DNA of 64,000 nucleotides, from NCBI RefSeq assembly GCF_029840635.1, contig NZ_JAOCCU010000032.1, forward strand, positions 1 through 64,000, read 5' to 3'. Under the pieces are notes generated by a model. That model did not search any database and was not told the DNA's origin. It saw only the letters and a list, made by a program, of their open reading frames with translations. Positions 25,061 through 52,453 of the stretch are shown here, in pieces (positions within the stretch are counted from its first letter, which is position 1; every line of letters begins with the position of its first letter). The translations under genes were made by a program, and so were the position numbers. The stretch is from Mitsuaria sp. GD03876. GTDB lineage: Bacteria; Pseudomonadota; Gammaproteobacteria; Burkholderiales; Burkholderiaceae_C.

Positions 25061-25729
25061 GTGCCGCCGTTCGCTCCCCTTCCCGCTTCCGCGCCGTCCA
25101 CCGATGCGCCGTCCACCGATGCGCCATCTGCCGACGCGCCATTCGTCGACGCGCCATTCGTCGGCGCGGCCCATGGCCGCCTCGGCTCGAACGCGCGTGG
25201 CTTCAGCCTGATCGAGGCGCTGGTCAGCGTCGCGATCGTCGCGCTGCTGGCCGTGCTGGCGGGGCCCGACCTGCGCGACTGGCTCTGGCGCCAGCGCCTG
25301 TCGAACGCGGCGCAGGCGGTGCTCGGCGACCTGCAGCTCGCGCGCAGCGAGGCGATCCAGGGCGCGCGCAACGTCATCCTGCATTTCGGCGGCGACGAGT
25401 CCGGCGTCAGCGGCAGCGGCCGCTGCTACGTGCTGCACACCGGCCCGGCTGGCGCCTGCGCCTGTCGCGTCGACGCGCCGCCGGTCTGCGACCCCGGCGC
25501 GCAGGCGCTCAAGCAGGCCCGCTGGCAGCGCGGCCGCGGGCAGGCCGAGGTGGTGGCCAACGTGCCGTCGATGCTGTTCAGCGGCCGCCAGGGCACGGTG
25601 TCGGTCAGCGGGACCGTCGAGGTGCGGATGACCGGCATCGGCGCGGTGCGCCACGTGGTCCACATCACCGGGCGTGTCCGCAGCTGCGGCACGGACAGCG
25701 CGATGAACCGCCTGCCGAGGTGCGCATGA
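25061..25729 (+). CDS. FimT/GspH-type minor pilin precursor
   Basis: A 222-residue type IV prepilin-like protein of the FimT/GspH group. The processing site is RG-FSLIEAL at residues 46-47, followed by the hydrophobic helix VSVAIVALLAVLA. The mature part has the GspH-like segment RLSNAAQAVLGDLQLARSEA. The leader is unusually long (47 residues) and holds five imperfect pentapeptides of the type APSTD, encoded by 15-base tandem repeats (25091-25165). The GTG start has GGAG eight bases upstream, and I found no later in-frame start before the processing site. It heads a minor-pilin operon. The next ATG overlaps its stop. Confidence 0.85.
   Translation: MPPFAPLPASAPSTDAPSTDAPSADAPFVDAPFVGAAHGRLGSNARGFSLIEALVSVAIVALLAVLAGPDLRDWLWRQRLSNAAQAVLGDLQLARSEAIQGARNVILHFGGDESGVSGSGRCYVLHTGPAGACACRVDAPPVCDPGAQALKQARWQRGRGQAEVVANVPSMLFSGRQGTVSVSGTVEVRMTGIGAVRHVVHITGRVRSCGTDSAMNRLPRCA
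25091..25165 (+). repeat. Five 15-base tandem repeats in the prepilin leader
   Basis: Units start at 25091, 25106, 25121, 25136 and 25151. The first two (GCGCCGTCCACCGAT) are identical and the other three diverge. Each encodes five residues (A-P-S/F-x-D), so gain or loss of a unit would change leader length without shifting frame. Confidence 0.85.
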
Positions 25730-26142
25730 GCCGCCGCGGTTTCTCGCTGATCGAGGTCCTGGCGGTGCTCGCGATCCTGGCCGTGCTCGCGGCGTTGGTC
25801 TTGCCCGGCTTCCGCGCCCAGATCCTCCAGGGCCGACGCGCCGAGGCGCGCGAGGCCTTGCAGGCCGTCCAACTGGCGCAAGAGCGGTTCCGGTCCAGGA
25901 ACCCGCGCTACGCCGATCGGCTGGAGGCGCTGGAGCATCCGGCGACGACCCGGAGCAGCCTGTATCGATTGCGGATCGTGCAGGCGGATGCGACGACCTA
26001 CACGGTCGAGGCGATCGCCCAAGGCACCCAAGGCGGCGACCGCCCCTGTCGCGTCCTGCGGCTGCGGCTGGAACTGGGCGCCATCCACACCGCCGGCCTG
26101 GACGAGCAGGGTGCCGAACAGGCCGCCTGCTGGCCGCGATGA
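25726..26142 (+). CDS. Type IV pilin-like protein (PilE family)
   Basis: A 138-residue prepilin with a short leader, cleavage at RRG-FSLIEVL and the hydrophobic N-terminal helix AVLAILAVLAALVLPGF. The mature portion contains QAVQLAQERFRSRNPRYAD, the pattern of PilE-type minor pilins, and two cysteines near the C terminus that could form the disulfide loop. The ATG overlaps the upstream stop (ATGA), so it is translationally coupled in the pilin operon. A GTG two codons upstream is an alternative start. Confidence 0.88.
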   Translation: MSRRGFSLIEVLAVLAILAVLAALVLPGFRAQILQGRRAEAREALQAVQLAQERFRSRNPRYADRLEALEHPATTRSSLYRLRIVQADATTYTVEAIAQGTQGGDRPCRVLRLRLELGAIHTAGLDEQGAEQAACWPR

Positions 26143-26155
26143 CGAGGCGCAGGAC

Positions 26156-26887
26156 ATGAGGCATTCCATGAGCCGCGCCATCCCGCGTCCGAGCCGCTCG
26201 CGCGGCTTCACGCTGGTGGAACTGTTGATCGGCTTGGCCATCGGCCTGGCCCTGATGGCCGGCGCCTTCGCGATGGCGGGATGGCAGCTTGGCGAGCATC
26301 ACCGCTTGATGCTCGAGCTGCAGGTCCAGCAGGACCTGCGGGGAACGGCCGAATTGATGCTGCGCGACCTGCGACGCGCGGCGTTCTGGGACCGGGCGCA
26401 GGACGGTGTCTGGGACGTGGACCGGCCGTCGCCGGTATCGAACCCCTTTGCCGACCTGTCGATCGCGGACGCGGGCACGCGCATCGCCTACAGCTTCGCG
26501 CGGGAAGGCGCGGCGGGCGGCGACGCCGCTCGCGAGGGCGCGGGCTTCCGCCTCGTCAACGGCCGCATCGATCAGCTCATCGCCGGTCGACACCAGCCGC
26601 TGATCGATCCCACGGTCCTGCGCGTGCGGGCCTTCGAAGCCAGGGTTTCGGCCACCGCCACCGCCACCGCCACCGCCTCAGGCTCGGGCTCGGGCTCGGG
26701 CTCAGGCTCAGGCTCAGGCTCGGACGATGGTGGGGCTGGCAACCCGTCCCGCTGTGAACCCCGGCTCGACCGCCGGCTCGTCGTGTTGTCCATCGACGCG
26801 GAGGCGGCGCACGACCGTCGCGTCCGCCACCGCCTCGAGCTGCACAGCCGCCTGCGCAACGACACGCTGACGGAGTCCTGCCCATGA
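26156..26887 (+). CDS. PilW-like minor pilin
   Basis: A 243-residue prepilin: leader, RG-FTLVELL processing site, helix IGLAIGLALMAGAFAMAG, then LRGTAELMLRDLRRAAFWD, typical of PilW. Around residues 166-190 is a low-complexity run (alternating Ala-Thr, then Gly-Ser) encoded by 6-base tandem repeats (26651-26721). It interrupts the otherwise globular C-terminal region, which ends with Cys-containing NPSRCEPRLDRR. The start at 26156 has AGGAC upstream. A second ATG at 26168 would give a shorter leader. The stop overlaps the next start. Confidence 0.82.
   Translation: MRHSMSRAIPRPSRSRGFTLVELLIGLAIGLALMAGAFAMAGWQLGEHHRLMLELQVQQDLRGTAELMLRDLRRAAFWDRAQDGVWDVDRPSPVSNPFADLSIADAGTRIAYSFAREGAAGGDAAREGAGFRLVNGRIDQLIAGRHQPLIDPTVLRVRAFEARVSATATATATASGSGSGSGSGSGSGSDDGGAGNPSRCEPRLDRRLVVLSIDAEAAHDRRVRHRLELHSRLRNDTLTESCP
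26651..26721 (+). repeat. Hexanucleotide tandem repeats inside the pilW-like gene
   Basis: About four GCCACC units (26651-26678) are followed by about seven GGCTCG/GGCTCA units (26681-26721). They encode (AT)n and (GS)n. The unit length is a multiple of three, so slippage changes protein length but not frame. Confidence 0.85.
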
Positions 26888-28014
26888 CGCGACGACGCGA
26901 ACGTGGCATCGGCACGCTGGCCACCTGCGCGGTGATGCTGATGGTGTTGGCCTTGGGCGCGGCCTGGGCGGCGCGGCAGATGACGACGGCGCAGCGCGTC
27001 GCCGCCAACGACCATCGCGCGGCCCTGGCCTTCGAGGCCGCCGAATCCGGCCTGGCCTGGGCGGTCGCGATGCTCAACGGCGGCGCCATCGACGCCGCCT
27101 GCCGACCCGCCGTCGTCGGGACGGCCACATCCGCCGCGGCGACGATGGCGACAACCCAGGCGCCCACGAAGCTCGGCGGCTCGACCGCCCTCGACTTCCG
27201 CACCCGGTTCCTGTCGATCGGCACCGATGGCCACTACCGCGCCCCCGCGAGCACCGACGCCCCGCCGCCGCCGACCTGCTGGAACACGGACGCGCTGCGC
27301 TGGACCTGCCGATGCTCGTCCGGCAGCCAAGGGAATGACGACGCGAGTCCAGCGGGCGGGGCGCCGAGGCCGCGATTCAGCGTGCGGTTCATCGATGGCG
27401 GCGCACCGGGCCAGCTCAAGTTGATCGCCTCCGGATGCAGTGACCAGCGCCCCCATTGCGACGACCTGACCGACGGCCCGTCCGGCGTGGCCGAGACGTC
27501 CCAGCACCTGGCCCTCCTGAGCGCCCTGCGGCTGCCGCCCGCGTCGGCCCGGGTCGAGGGCCCGGGCAGCTTCCTCCAGGTATTCGGCTACCCACCGGCG
27601 CACTACCGAAACCAACCCGCGATCGCCCGGCTTCGATGCGACGGCGAGTGCGCCGGCCCGTTGGCGCAAGCGCTCGCGCGCGGGCGGCGCCTCGTCTGGA
27701 TCGACGGCGACGCTCGGCTGTCGCGCTGGCCGGACGAGGCGCTGGACGGCACGCCATGGATCCTCGTGGTCGATGGACTGCTGACGCTGTCCGCCCCCGG
27801 CCATCCCCAAGGGGTGCTGTATGCGCGAGACGGCATCCACTGGCACCCGGCGGCGGGCACGGCAGCCTCGCTGCGTGGCGCGCTCGTCACCGACGGCGTG
27901 ATCGACCGGGCCCGCTCCGTGGAGCTGATCCACGACCGGGCGGTGCTGCACCAGCTTCATCGCCGGATGGGCAGCTTCCTGCCAGTCCCTGGCGGATGGA
28001 CGCCGACACGATGA
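26884..28014 (+). CDS. PilX-like minor pilin-assembly protein
   Basis: A 376-residue membrane-anchored protein. The N-terminal part (RRRERGIGTLATCAVMLMVLALGAAWA) resembles a PilX-type prepilin, with Gly before a hydrophobic helix but without the strict F-x-x-x-E pattern, and is followed by AFEAAESGLAWA, a PilX signature. The rest is Cys-containing and Ala-rich with no catalytic motif. It overlaps its neighbours on both sides by ATGA, showing tight operon structure. It is longer than common PilX proteins (about 170-200). Confidence 0.75.
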   Translation: MTRRRERGIGTLATCAVMLMVLALGAAWAARQMTTAQRVAANDHRAALAFEAAESGLAWAVAMLNGGAIDAACRPAVVGTATSAAATMATTQAPTKLGGSTALDFRTRFLSIGTDGHYRAPASTDAPPPPTCWNTDALRWTCRCSSGSQGNDDASPAGGAPRPRFSVRFIDGGAPGQLKLIASGCSDQRPHCDDLTDGPSGVAETSQHLALLSALRLPPASARVEGPGSFLQVFGYPPAHYRNQPAIARLRCDGECAGPLAQALARGRRLVWIDGDARLSRWPDEALDGTPWILVVDGLLTLSAPGHPQGVLYARDGIHWHPAAGTAASLRGALVTDGVIDRARSVELIHDRAVLHQLHRRMGSFLPVPGGWTPTR

Positions 28015-28571
28015 CCACACCGCTCACCCCTCCCCGACGGCCGGCCAGCCACGGCGGCTTCACGCTGATCGAAGCGCTGATCGCACTGGCGCTGCTGAGC
28101 ATCGGCATCGTCGGCCTGATGACCCTGCAGGTCCGGCTCCGGCTGGCTGCCGACGAGGTCCGCAACCAGGATCAAGGCCTGCGCCTGGCGCGCAACGAAC
28201 TTGAACGCTGGCGTTGGCGGCCCGAGGGCTCGGCGCCCGCCCTGACCTGGGAAGGACCCACCACCGCGTTCCACGTCACCGGCCGCTCGGCCACGCTGGA
28301 CGAGGCGCTCGGCCTCGGTCGCACCGATCGGGACCGCGCCGACCGGGATCGCGCCGGCGGGCGCCCCGGCCCCGGCAGCTCTGGACACAGCAGCGAGCAA
28401 GACGCGGGAATGACCGCCCTGCCCCTTCGCCCCGTCCACCTGCGCGTGCAGTGGATCGACCGCCAGGGACGCCCCCACGCGCTGGCGCTGGACAGCCTGT
28501 TGCCGACCACCGATCCCGCCCTCTCCGCATGGCTGCTCCTGGGCCCGGAGGCCGCCGCTAGACTGCGCGCC
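28011..28571 (+). CDS. PilV-like minor pilin, reading frame continuous with ribD
   Basis: This 187-codon segment begins with a prepilin leader and HGG-FTLIEALIAL cleavage site, a hydrophobic helix (LLSIGIVGLMTLQVRL) and NQDQGLRLARNELERWRW, as in PilV. The ATG overlaps the upstream stop. Unexpectedly there is no stop codon before the ribD start at 28572, so translation would continue in the same frame to 29744, giving a 577-residue PilV-RibD protein. Either this is a real fusion, or pilV has lost its stop and RibD is also made from its own ATG, for which a -10-like TAGACT sits at 28559-28564. A low-complexity RDRADRDRAG stretch lies mid-way. Confidence 0.7.
28559..28564 (+). promoter_or_regulatory. 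Putative -10 element of ribD
   Basis: TAGACT ends seven bases before the ribD ATG (28572), the same distance as the -10-like hexamers before ribBA and ada-alkA. No Shine-Dalgarno is visible, so a leaderless transcript is possible. No clear -35 was found. Confidence 0.35.
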
Positions 28572-29744
28572 ATGCAAGATTCCCGACCGCCCCTGGCCAC
28601 CGGCTCCGCGACCGCTCCGGCCTCGCCGACCTCGCGCGACGACCGCTGGTTGGCTCACGCCGTGCAGCTCGCCGAGCGCGGCATCGGCCTCACTGATCCG
28701 AATCCGCGCGTCGGCTGCGTGATCGTCGACGGGCAGGACCAGGTGCTCGGCCAGGGCCACACGCAACCGGCCGGGCAGGCGCATGCCGAGGTCATGGCCC
28801 TGCGCGATGCCCAGTCGCGCCAGCGGGACGTGCGCGGCGCGACCGTCTACGTGACGCTCGAGCCCTGCGCCCACCATGGCCGCACGCCGCCGTGCTGCGA
28901 CGCGCTGATCGCGGCCGGCGTGGGCCGGGTCGTCGTCGCGCTGGGGGACCCGAACCCGCAGGTCGCCGGGCAAGGCCTGGCGCGGATGCGGGCCGCGGGC
29001 ATCGCGACCGAGGTCCTGCCGGTGGACCATCCGTCCGCCGTCGCGGCCAGCGAGCTCAACATCGGTTTCCTGACCCGGATGCGGCAAGGCCGGCCGTTCG
29101 TGCGGCTGAAGGTCGCGGCCTCGCTGGACGGCCGGACCGCCTTGTCCAACGGCGTGAGCCAATGGATCACCGGCCCCGACGCGCGCCGCGACGGCCATGC
29201 CTGGCGACGCCGGGCCGGCGCGGTGCTGACCGGCATCGGCACCGCCCGCGAGGACGATCCGCGCCTGGACGTGCGCGACGTCGAGACGGTGCTGCAGCCA
29301 CAGCGGGTGCTGATCGACTCGCGATTGGAGCTGTCGCCGACGGCGCGGCTGCTGGACCCGCCCGGCCAGTTGCTGGTCTATCACGCGCTGGCGGAGCCCG
29401 GCGAGCGCGGCGCGGCGCTGGCCGCCCGGGGCGCCGAGCTGGTGTCCGTCGCCGATCCGGCGCGCGGCAAGGTCGACCTCGCCGCGGCCATCCGGGACCT
29501 GGGCCGGCGCCAGGTCAACGAGCTGCACATCGAGGCCGGGTACAAGCTCAACGGCTCGCTACTGCGCACCGGGCTGGTCGACGAACTGCTGCTCTATCTC
29601 GCGCCGATGCTGCTGGGCGACGGCCGCGGCATGGTCGACCTCGGCGGCCTGACGGCCCTGGACCAGGCCTCGCGCTGGCGGCTGGTCGACAGCGCGCCGG
29701 TCGGCGGCGACCTGCGGCTGCGCCTGAGACCGGCCACCGCTTGA
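28572..29744 (+). CDS. ribD: Riboflavin biosynthesis deaminase/reductase
   Basis: A 390-residue bifunctional enzyme that deaminates and then reduces the pyrimidine intermediate of riboflavin synthesis. The deaminase domain shows TDPNPRVGCVIV, HAEVMAL (zinc His and Glu) and EPCAHHGRTPPCCDA (zinc Cys pair). The C-terminal RibD_C reductase begins near GRPFVRLKVAASLDGRTAL and includes GAVLTGIGTAREDDPRLDVR. The first 24 residues are a non-conserved extension. The frame is open upstream into pilV. ribBA follows after 25 bases, giving the ribD-ribBA-ribH-nusB order. Confidence 0.94.
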   Translation: MQDSRPPLATGSATAPASPTSRDDRWLAHAVQLAERGIGLTDPNPRVGCVIVDGQDQVLGQGHTQPAGQAHAEVMALRDAQSRQRDVRGATVYVTLEPCAHHGRTPPCCDALIAAGVGRVVVALGDPNPQVAGQGLARMRAAGIATEVLPVDHPSAVAASELNIGFLTRMRQGRPFVRLKVAASLDGRTALSNGVSQWITGPDARRDGHAWRRRAGAVLTGIGTAREDDPRLDVRDVETVLQPQRVLIDSRLELSPTARLLDPPGQLLVYHALAEPGERGAALAARGAELVSVADPARGKVDLAAAIRDLGRRQVNELHIEAGYKLNGSLLRTGLVDELLLYLAPMLLGDGRGMVDLGGLTALDQASRWRLVDSAPVGGDLRLRLRPATA

Positions 29745-29756
29745 TGCCGCCCCGCC

Positions 29757-29762
29757 TACAAT
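29757..29762 (+). promoter_or_regulatory. Putative -10 element of ribBA
   Basis: TACAAT ends seven bases before the ribBA ATG at 29770, and no ribosome-binding sequence lies between. This predicts transcription starting at or next to the A of the ATG. A matching -35 was not found, and read-through from ribD is also likely. Confidence 0.45.
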
Positions 29763-29769
29763 CGCGCCC

Positions 29770-51814: not shown

Positions 51815-52453
51815 TCAGTCCAGCTGGCCGCCGCCGGCGCGGATCTCCCGCGCCGTGATCGCCAGTTCCACCGCCAGCCGCGTCGCCGCCACCAGCGTGG
51901 GCAGCGGCAGGCTGGGCGCGCCGGGATGGCGGGCGGCCTGCTCCGGCAGGTAGGGGATGTGCATGAAGCCACTGCGCGCACCGGCCTCCCTGAGCCGGTG
52001 CTGCAGGCCGTAGAACAGGTGATTGCAGACGAAGGTGCCGGCCGTCTGCGACACCGAGGCCGGGAACCCCGCCGCCCGCAGGCCCGCCACGATCGCCTTG
52101 ATCGGCAAGGTCGAGAAGTAGGCGGCCGGACCGTCGGGCACGACCGGCTCGTCGACCGGCTGCGCGCCGGCGTTGTCGGGGATCCGGGCATCGTCGACGT
52201 TGATCGCCACGCGCTCCAGCGACAGGTCGCAGCGGCCGCCCGCCTGCCCGATCGCCAGCACCACGGCCGGTGTCACCCGCTGCAGCGCCTCGTCCAGCCG
52301 CGCCAGCGCCTCGCCGAACACGCACGGCAGCTGCACCGCCACCACCCGCATCCCGGCGACGACCTCGCCGTTGAGCGCGCGCGCCAGTTCCCACGACGGA
52401 TTGACGCTTTCGCCCCCGAACGGCTCGAAGCCGGTTACCAGCACGTTGTTCAT
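51815..52453 (-). CDS. pcp: Pyrrolidone-carboxylate peptidase
   Basis: A 212-residue cysteine peptidase (family C15) that removes N-terminal pyroglutamate. Catalytic residues are visible: Glu in the PNP-region [17 protein letters not shown], Cys in [14 protein letters not shown] and His in [10 protein letters not shown]. The opening [19 protein letters not shown] is a family hallmark. Length is normal. It lies on the minus strand exactly between the two plus-strand M66 genes, so the tandem duplicates are separated by an unrelated gene. Confidence 0.95.

Follow-up and report, generated by a model that had tools for sequence, protein, structure and literature searches.

In the 64,000-nucleotide stretch of Mitsuaria sp. 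GD03876 DNA analyzed here (the window), the minor type IV prepilin gene pilV runs without a stop codon into ribD, and this fused frame is more widespread than one genome, being present in 6 of 16 genus genomes. The fused frame most likely arose when a stop that pilV had borrowed from a promoter-like box of the downstream gene slipped out of frame. The reading that we favor, and regard as likely, is that ribD is expressed from its own leaderless mRNA and that the pilV mRNA would give an exported, tolerated PilV-RibD by-product after the stop slipped from the TAG of the borrowed box.

The shared frame and its gene products

Translation of positions 28011 to 29744 on the plus strand gave 577 codons without an internal stop and one terminal stop, which confirms the uninterrupted frame of 577 residues described in the sequence-only reading of this DNA. 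Translation and profile matches together reveal an N-terminal prepilin motif followed by a complete RibD. The frame is open upstream too, and in DNA this rich in G+C its openness by itself therefore proves little. The stop-to-stop frame reaches further upstream, to 766 codons, and a TTG-started ORF of 762 amino acids begins at 27456 in the same frame as pilV-ribD. The pilX stop codon and the pilV ATG overlap as ATGA (28011 to 28014), and a second in-frame ATG is located 5 codons upstream of the pilV ATG. The features of the locus are listed in Table 1. The PilW-like protein contains a Ser-Gly repeat after an Ala-Thr repeat (approximately 26650 to 26750), possibly a length-variable tract.

Table 1. 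Positions of the minor-pilin genes, pilV, ribD, and the leaderless-type boxes in the window
Feature	Position	Strand	Remark
FimT/GspH-like gene	25061-25729	+	upstream minor-pilin row (25061..28014)
ComP/PilE-like gene	25720-26142	+	upstream minor-pilin row
PilW-like gene	26045-26887	+	named by place and prepilin motif only
PilX gene	26884-28014	+	upstream minor-pilin row
pilV, minor type IV prepilin without its own stop codon	28011..28571	+	prepilin motif GFTLIE at 28056-28073
PilV tail, 16 codons after the conserved DPAL up to the ribD ATG	28524..28571	+	48 nt in 6/6 open genomes
TAGACT, -10-like box of ribD	28559..28564	+	present in 16/16 genus genomes; TAG out of the pilV frame here
7-nt gap from the box to the ribD ATG (leaderless spacing)	28565..28571	+	
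ribD, deaminase and reductase domains	28572..29744	+	390 aa from its own ATG at 28572
TACAAT, second leaderless-type box	29757..29762	+	7 nt before the ribBA ATG (29770)

The prepilin motif of the pilV product was matched by the Pfam profile PF07963 (N_methyl) at residues 14 to 36 with 25.9 bits (cut-off, 21.2). The match to the PilV family TIGR02523 reached 36.3 bits, below the cut-off of 52.2, which was exceeded in none of the eight genomes of the clade described below. The name PilV is based only on the prepilin motif and on the place of the gene after FimT-, PilE/ComP-, PilW-, and PilX-like genes. In all 16 genus genomes, the prepilin motif is followed by an open frame to the end of pilV. 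In G015, G014, and G003 (loci L134, L137, and L139), the 50 codons upstream of the motif contain no in-frame ATG, the only start codon sought, and the pilV start in these genomes may be another codon or may lie further upstream. A second PilV-like prepilin is located elsewhere in the window genome, G000 (G000:C67:155211-155486), with 37.3 bits, also below the family cut-off.

The RibD part carries HAEVMAL and TLEPCAHHGRTPPCC and thus contains HAE and PCxxxGRTPPC, which we take to be the RibD zinc motif. It matched TIGR00326 with 337.5 bits (cut-off, 156.35) and the solved RibD structure 2g6v with an E value of 5.1e-90, and its domains are the cytidine-deaminase-type PF00383 (residues 209 to 310 of 577) and the reductase PF01872 (residues 362 to 568). 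Exactly one full-length RibD above the TIGR00326 cut-off was found per genome in 8 of 8 clade genomes, G000 included, which rules out a second full-length RibD that would free the fused copy in these genomes. The riboflavin synthase gene ribE was not found between ribD and ribBA (29745 to 29769). The only ribE match in G000 lies on another contig (G000:C39:7497-8111), and the single ribE match is likewise far from ribD in G005, G008, and G003.

The pilV-ribD junction across the genus

The junction was read in all 16 Roseateles/Mitsuaria genomes of the comparison set, "genus" here being the database genus, outside which some records are also named Roseateles. This comparison of sister species, which the sequence-only reading had named as a check, revealed the same open junction in G000, G005, G006, G011, G002, and G004; pilV was closed in the other 10 genomes. 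In 8 of these 10 (G008, G010, G013, G015, G001, G014, G009, and G003), the pilV stop is the TAG of TAGACT, and in G012 and G007 it occurs earlier than the box. The distance from a conserved [DNS][PR]xL motif to TAGACT is 27 nt in all six of G013, G015, G001, G014, G009, and G003. The six open genomes all have 35 nt, and G008 and G010, which are closed and belong to the same clade as the open genomes, have 36 nt; the distance is 101 nt in G012 and 93 nt in G007. Since 35 nt is not divisible by three, the stop was lost in the open genomes, which supports the earlier suggestion of a lost stop codon as the cause of the shared frame. Once the TAG of TAGACT is missed, a fusion is expected in about one of two such frameshifts because two frames remain and, at the 7-nt spacing, one of them is that of ribD itself, which is necessarily open. 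In G012 (locus L135), pilV ends at the TAG in GGTTAGGACACCCCCATG, 74 nt upstream of the TAGACT box; this stretch resembles a worn copy of the box, and pilV may have acquired this separate stop through a short insertion or duplication.

An identical open junction in six genomes is not readily explained by chance or error. The fused proteins of the other open genomes are only 70 to 79% identical to that of G000, and despite this divergence the six assemblies have the same 35-nt spacing; moreover, no run longer than 3 bases occurs in the 35 nt upstream of the box in the window. An assembly or sequencing error that removed the stop is therefore extremely improbable and was rejected for the group as a whole. 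G005 alone could be such an error, its junction differing from that of G010 by one G in a C5G3/C5G4 run. Outside the genus, the same fusion was found in none of 31 rows with a pilV-like ORF ending at most 200 nt before the ribD match. These rows came from 119 loci read (10 of them genus records), which were the best matches (at most 30 per genome search) and hence the most similar ones; 293 of 299 family genomes were matched, and two pairs of the 31 rows look duplicated.

Phylogenetic analysis based on five gene segments (16 genomes and 4386 columns, with some segments missing in some genomes) grouped the six open genomes with G008 and G010 in one eight-species clade (support, 100/100). G008 fell outside the pair formed by G005 and G010 (support, 97/95). 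Two forks of the tree are weak, one of which is the base of the eight-species clade. At least three changes between the open and closed states are needed on this tree. Two histories fit the data alike, one with an opening and two closings and the other with an opening, a closing, and a re-opening in G005; repeated independent openings from a closed ancestor with 36 nt would take four or five changes by a manual count on the tree. On the simplest reading, the frame was already open in the ancestor of the eight species, and the idea of a fresh "snapshot" of stop loss is accordingly not supported.

The start of ribD

Every one of the 16 genus genomes has TAGACT upstream of the ribD ATG, at a spacing of 7 nt in 13 genomes and of 6 nt in the other 3. 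The Shine-Dalgarno cores GGAG, GAGG, AGGA, and AAGG are absent from the 20 nt upstream of this ATG in 15 of 16 genomes, G000 included, the exception being G013 with AAGG at -17, and a Shine-Dalgarno start of ribD was rejected on these grounds. By eye, GGAGG is present 20 nt upstream of the ribD ATG in G000 and also in G002, a distance that is too far by the usual Shine-Dalgarno spacing. With a box 6 to 7 nt upstream and no Shine-Dalgarno sequence in reach, the ribD start has the layout of a putative leaderless start. No recognizable -35 element was found, the best match being 2/6 in G000 and at most 3/6 in any of the 16 genomes, although not all promoters require a recognizable one, and a TG before the box was found in none of the 16; it is therefore the position and the conservation of the box that point to promoter activity. 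A search of the window for riboswitches and other known RNAs gave no Rfam match at the gathering threshold.

All six open genomes retain the box; its TAG stops nothing there, and the box forces the rare codon AGA into the PilV tail. Among 119 arginine codons of six genes in the window, none is AGA, and the counts for the cores of the six open genomes are 4 of 243 (ribD) and 0 of 86 (pilV). The conservation of the box and its spacing in 16 of 16 genomes, the missing Shine-Dalgarno sequence, and the retention of AGA in every open genome (6 of 6) favor a separate RibD that starts at its own ATG behind TAGACT, which had been offered as the alternative to a fused product and is the better supported of the two.

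The TAG of the box also lies in the -1 frame of pilV in 6 of 6 open genomes, so a ribosome that slipped by -1 shortly before the box would stop there and release a normal PilV. Heptamers of the X XXY YYZ type were seen by eye in G000 (G GGC CCG) and G005 (C CCG GGT), but no in-frame heptamer was seen by eye in the tails of G006, G011, G002, and G004. Such slippage is thus very unlikely, and a programmed frameshift was rejected because the slippery heptamer, as judged by eye, is not conserved.

Of 102 distinct loci outside the genus, 24 have TAGACT-N6/7-ATG at ribD and 4 more have another TANNNT there. The other 74 loci have no TANNNT-N5-8-ATG/GTG at ribD, which indicates that the box is not general. 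At none of the 24 TAGACT loci does a pilV-like ORF end with this TAG: such an ORF ends 8 to 83 nt earlier in 17 loci and 453 nt earlier in 1, and none was found in 6. The box thus exists apart from its role as a pilV stop, and it is probably older than its use as such.

A scan of the window for TANNNT-N6-8-ATG followed by at least 80 open codons retrieved four starts, all with 7 nt: ribD, ribBA (29770), 60248 (+), and 52453 (-). The starts at 52453 (-) and 60248 (+) are TAGACT-N7-ATG and TATCAT-N7-ATG, and from their first residues the ORFs are presumably a pyrrolidone-carboxylate peptidase and an AlkA/Ada protein, respectively. A crude count over 400 kb of G006, made with no gene calls, gave 10 boxes located 6 to 8 nt upstream of ATGs that come early in long frames, versus about 2 expected for these three distances from 27 boxes over 38 other distances; for later ATGs, the equally crude count was 5 versus about 1 expected from 13 boxes over other distances. 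Leaderless mRNAs have been reported in B. cenocepacia (PMC4603805) and in Cupriavidus metallidurans, where they make up 4.67% of primary start sites (PMC7563307); the word ribD does not occur in the main texts of these two reports.

Possible selection on the fused frame

In the six open genomes, the pN/pS ratios were 0.51 for the PilV core, 0.51 for the 16-codon tail, and 0.26 for RibD. In eight closed genomes (G007 and G012, in which pilV ends before the box, were dropped), the PilV core had a ratio of 0.66 and RibD one of 0.30. The frequencies of tail differences among the open genomes at codon positions 1, 2, and 3 were 0.28, 0.28, and 0.55, respectively (11 codons, with the last 15 nt excluded). 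Because differences in the tail are twice as frequent at third positions, translation in this frame appears to continue almost as far as the box, as one would expect of PilV. Only 1 to 5 single substitutions per genome could make a stop in the tail, and since so few can do so, a frame that stays open does not in itself point to selection. These comparisons gave no clear indication that the fusion is selected. Selection for the fusion may lie behind the persistence of the open frame, and mild selection against it may lie behind the two lineages of the clade that are closed.

These values bear on two further explanations. The pilV mRNA might be barely translated, or pilV might be decaying, so that the fusion would hardly ever be made. 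The second PilV-like prepilin elsewhere in G000, the PilV core ratio of 0.51, which is relaxed relative to the 0.26 of RibD, and the three closed genomes with no nearby in-frame ATG before the prepilin motif are consistent with this explanation. However, the PilV core ratio is 0.66 in the closed genomes, so the open group is not more relaxed, and the prepilin motif and the open frame behind it are preserved throughout the genus, which makes silence or decay of pilV unlikely. Alternatively, the fusion could be useful, PilV carrying RibD or its fold to the periplasm or the pilus tip and selection keeping the frame open. Six species are indeed open, with a tail of 48 nt that has no in-frame stop in any of them, and the third-position excess and the equal ratios of core and tail also speak in its favor. 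Against this stand two species of the same clade that are closed at a distance differing by one nucleotide, and a tail constraint that equals that of PilV, so that RibD function is not needed to account for it; openness is weak evidence given the few substitutions that could end it. In addition, the substrates of RibD and NADPH are cytoplasmic, which counts against a useful exported fusion. A useful fusion is, on balance, very doubtful.

Proposed origin of the fusion and its two predicted products

In the mechanism that we propose, the ribD promoter would have TAGACT as its -10 box, ending 6 to 7 nt upstream of the ATG, and the mRNA would begin at or near this ATG. In relatives, pilV stops before the box or, as in most closed members of the genus, at the TAG inside it. 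In the ancestor of the eight species, the spacing between PilV core and box would have changed from 27 to 35 nt, so that the TAG would have fallen out of the pilV frame, and the 7 nt from the box to the ATG would have made the pilV frame that of ribD. Ribosomes on the pilV mRNA, coupled from pilX by the ATGA overlap, would then read through into ribD, and a PilV-RibD of approximately 577 residues is predicted because they would meet no stop before the ribD end. Given the usual topology of prepilins, the fused RibD part would be extracytoplasmic, placed outside the cytoplasm by the prepilin signal. The exported fusion may be tolerated, which a position of PilV at the pilus tip could explain, and the working RibD would be made separately from the leaderless mRNA.

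Because full-length RibD is single-copy, a separate cytoplasmic RibD is expected from this locus, and the leaderless start would be its simplest source. The notion that the fusion is the working form of RibD is not supported, as the only RibD copy would be exported by the prepilin signal; the fusion is, as predicted from sequence, a probable by-product. A stricter form of the two-product scheme, in which every translated PilV is a fusion exported in or near the pilus tip and cytoplasmic RibD comes from the nested leaderless start, one frame thus serving two compartments, seems quite unlikely.

Comparison with known systems and implications

Stop loss between neighboring genes is a general route to gene fusion. 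Here too, two neighbors were joined in one frame by an indel, but ribD has retained a start of its own, and two relatives within the clade have a closed frame. Like other bifunctional RibD proteins (TIGR00326; 2g6v), the one described here has full deaminase and reductase domains and is the one full-length copy in its genome; unlike them, its frame continues upstream through a minor pilin, and its own start has no Shine-Dalgarno sequence. PilV shares with type IV minor pilins of TIGR02523 the prepilin motif and the place after PilX in the minor-pilin row, but it scores below the family cut-off and has no stop before ribD. The TANNNT box 6 to 7 nt before the ATG and the missing Shine-Dalgarno sequence resemble the leaderless genes described for B. 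cenocepacia (PMC4603805) and C. metallidurans (PMC7563307), whereas the ribD box lies inside an upstream coding frame, and its TAG is the stop of the upstream gene in close relatives. As in recA-recX of Mycobacterium tuberculosis (PMC3062782), the downstream gene has a promoter, here a predicted one, inside the upstream gene; the coding regions overlap there, whereas here they form one shared frame without a stop. An earlier description of a PilV-RibD fusion was not found in searches of an open-licence library of papers.

Within one genus, the locus forms a graded series in which pilV has its own stop, uses the TAG of the box as its stop, has this stop out of frame (six species), or is closed (two nested species). 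It shows how a promoter at the end of a coding region can provide a stop, give it up, and perhaps provide it again, and it offers a way to ask directly whether the cell tolerates an exported metabolic enzyme hung on a pilin.
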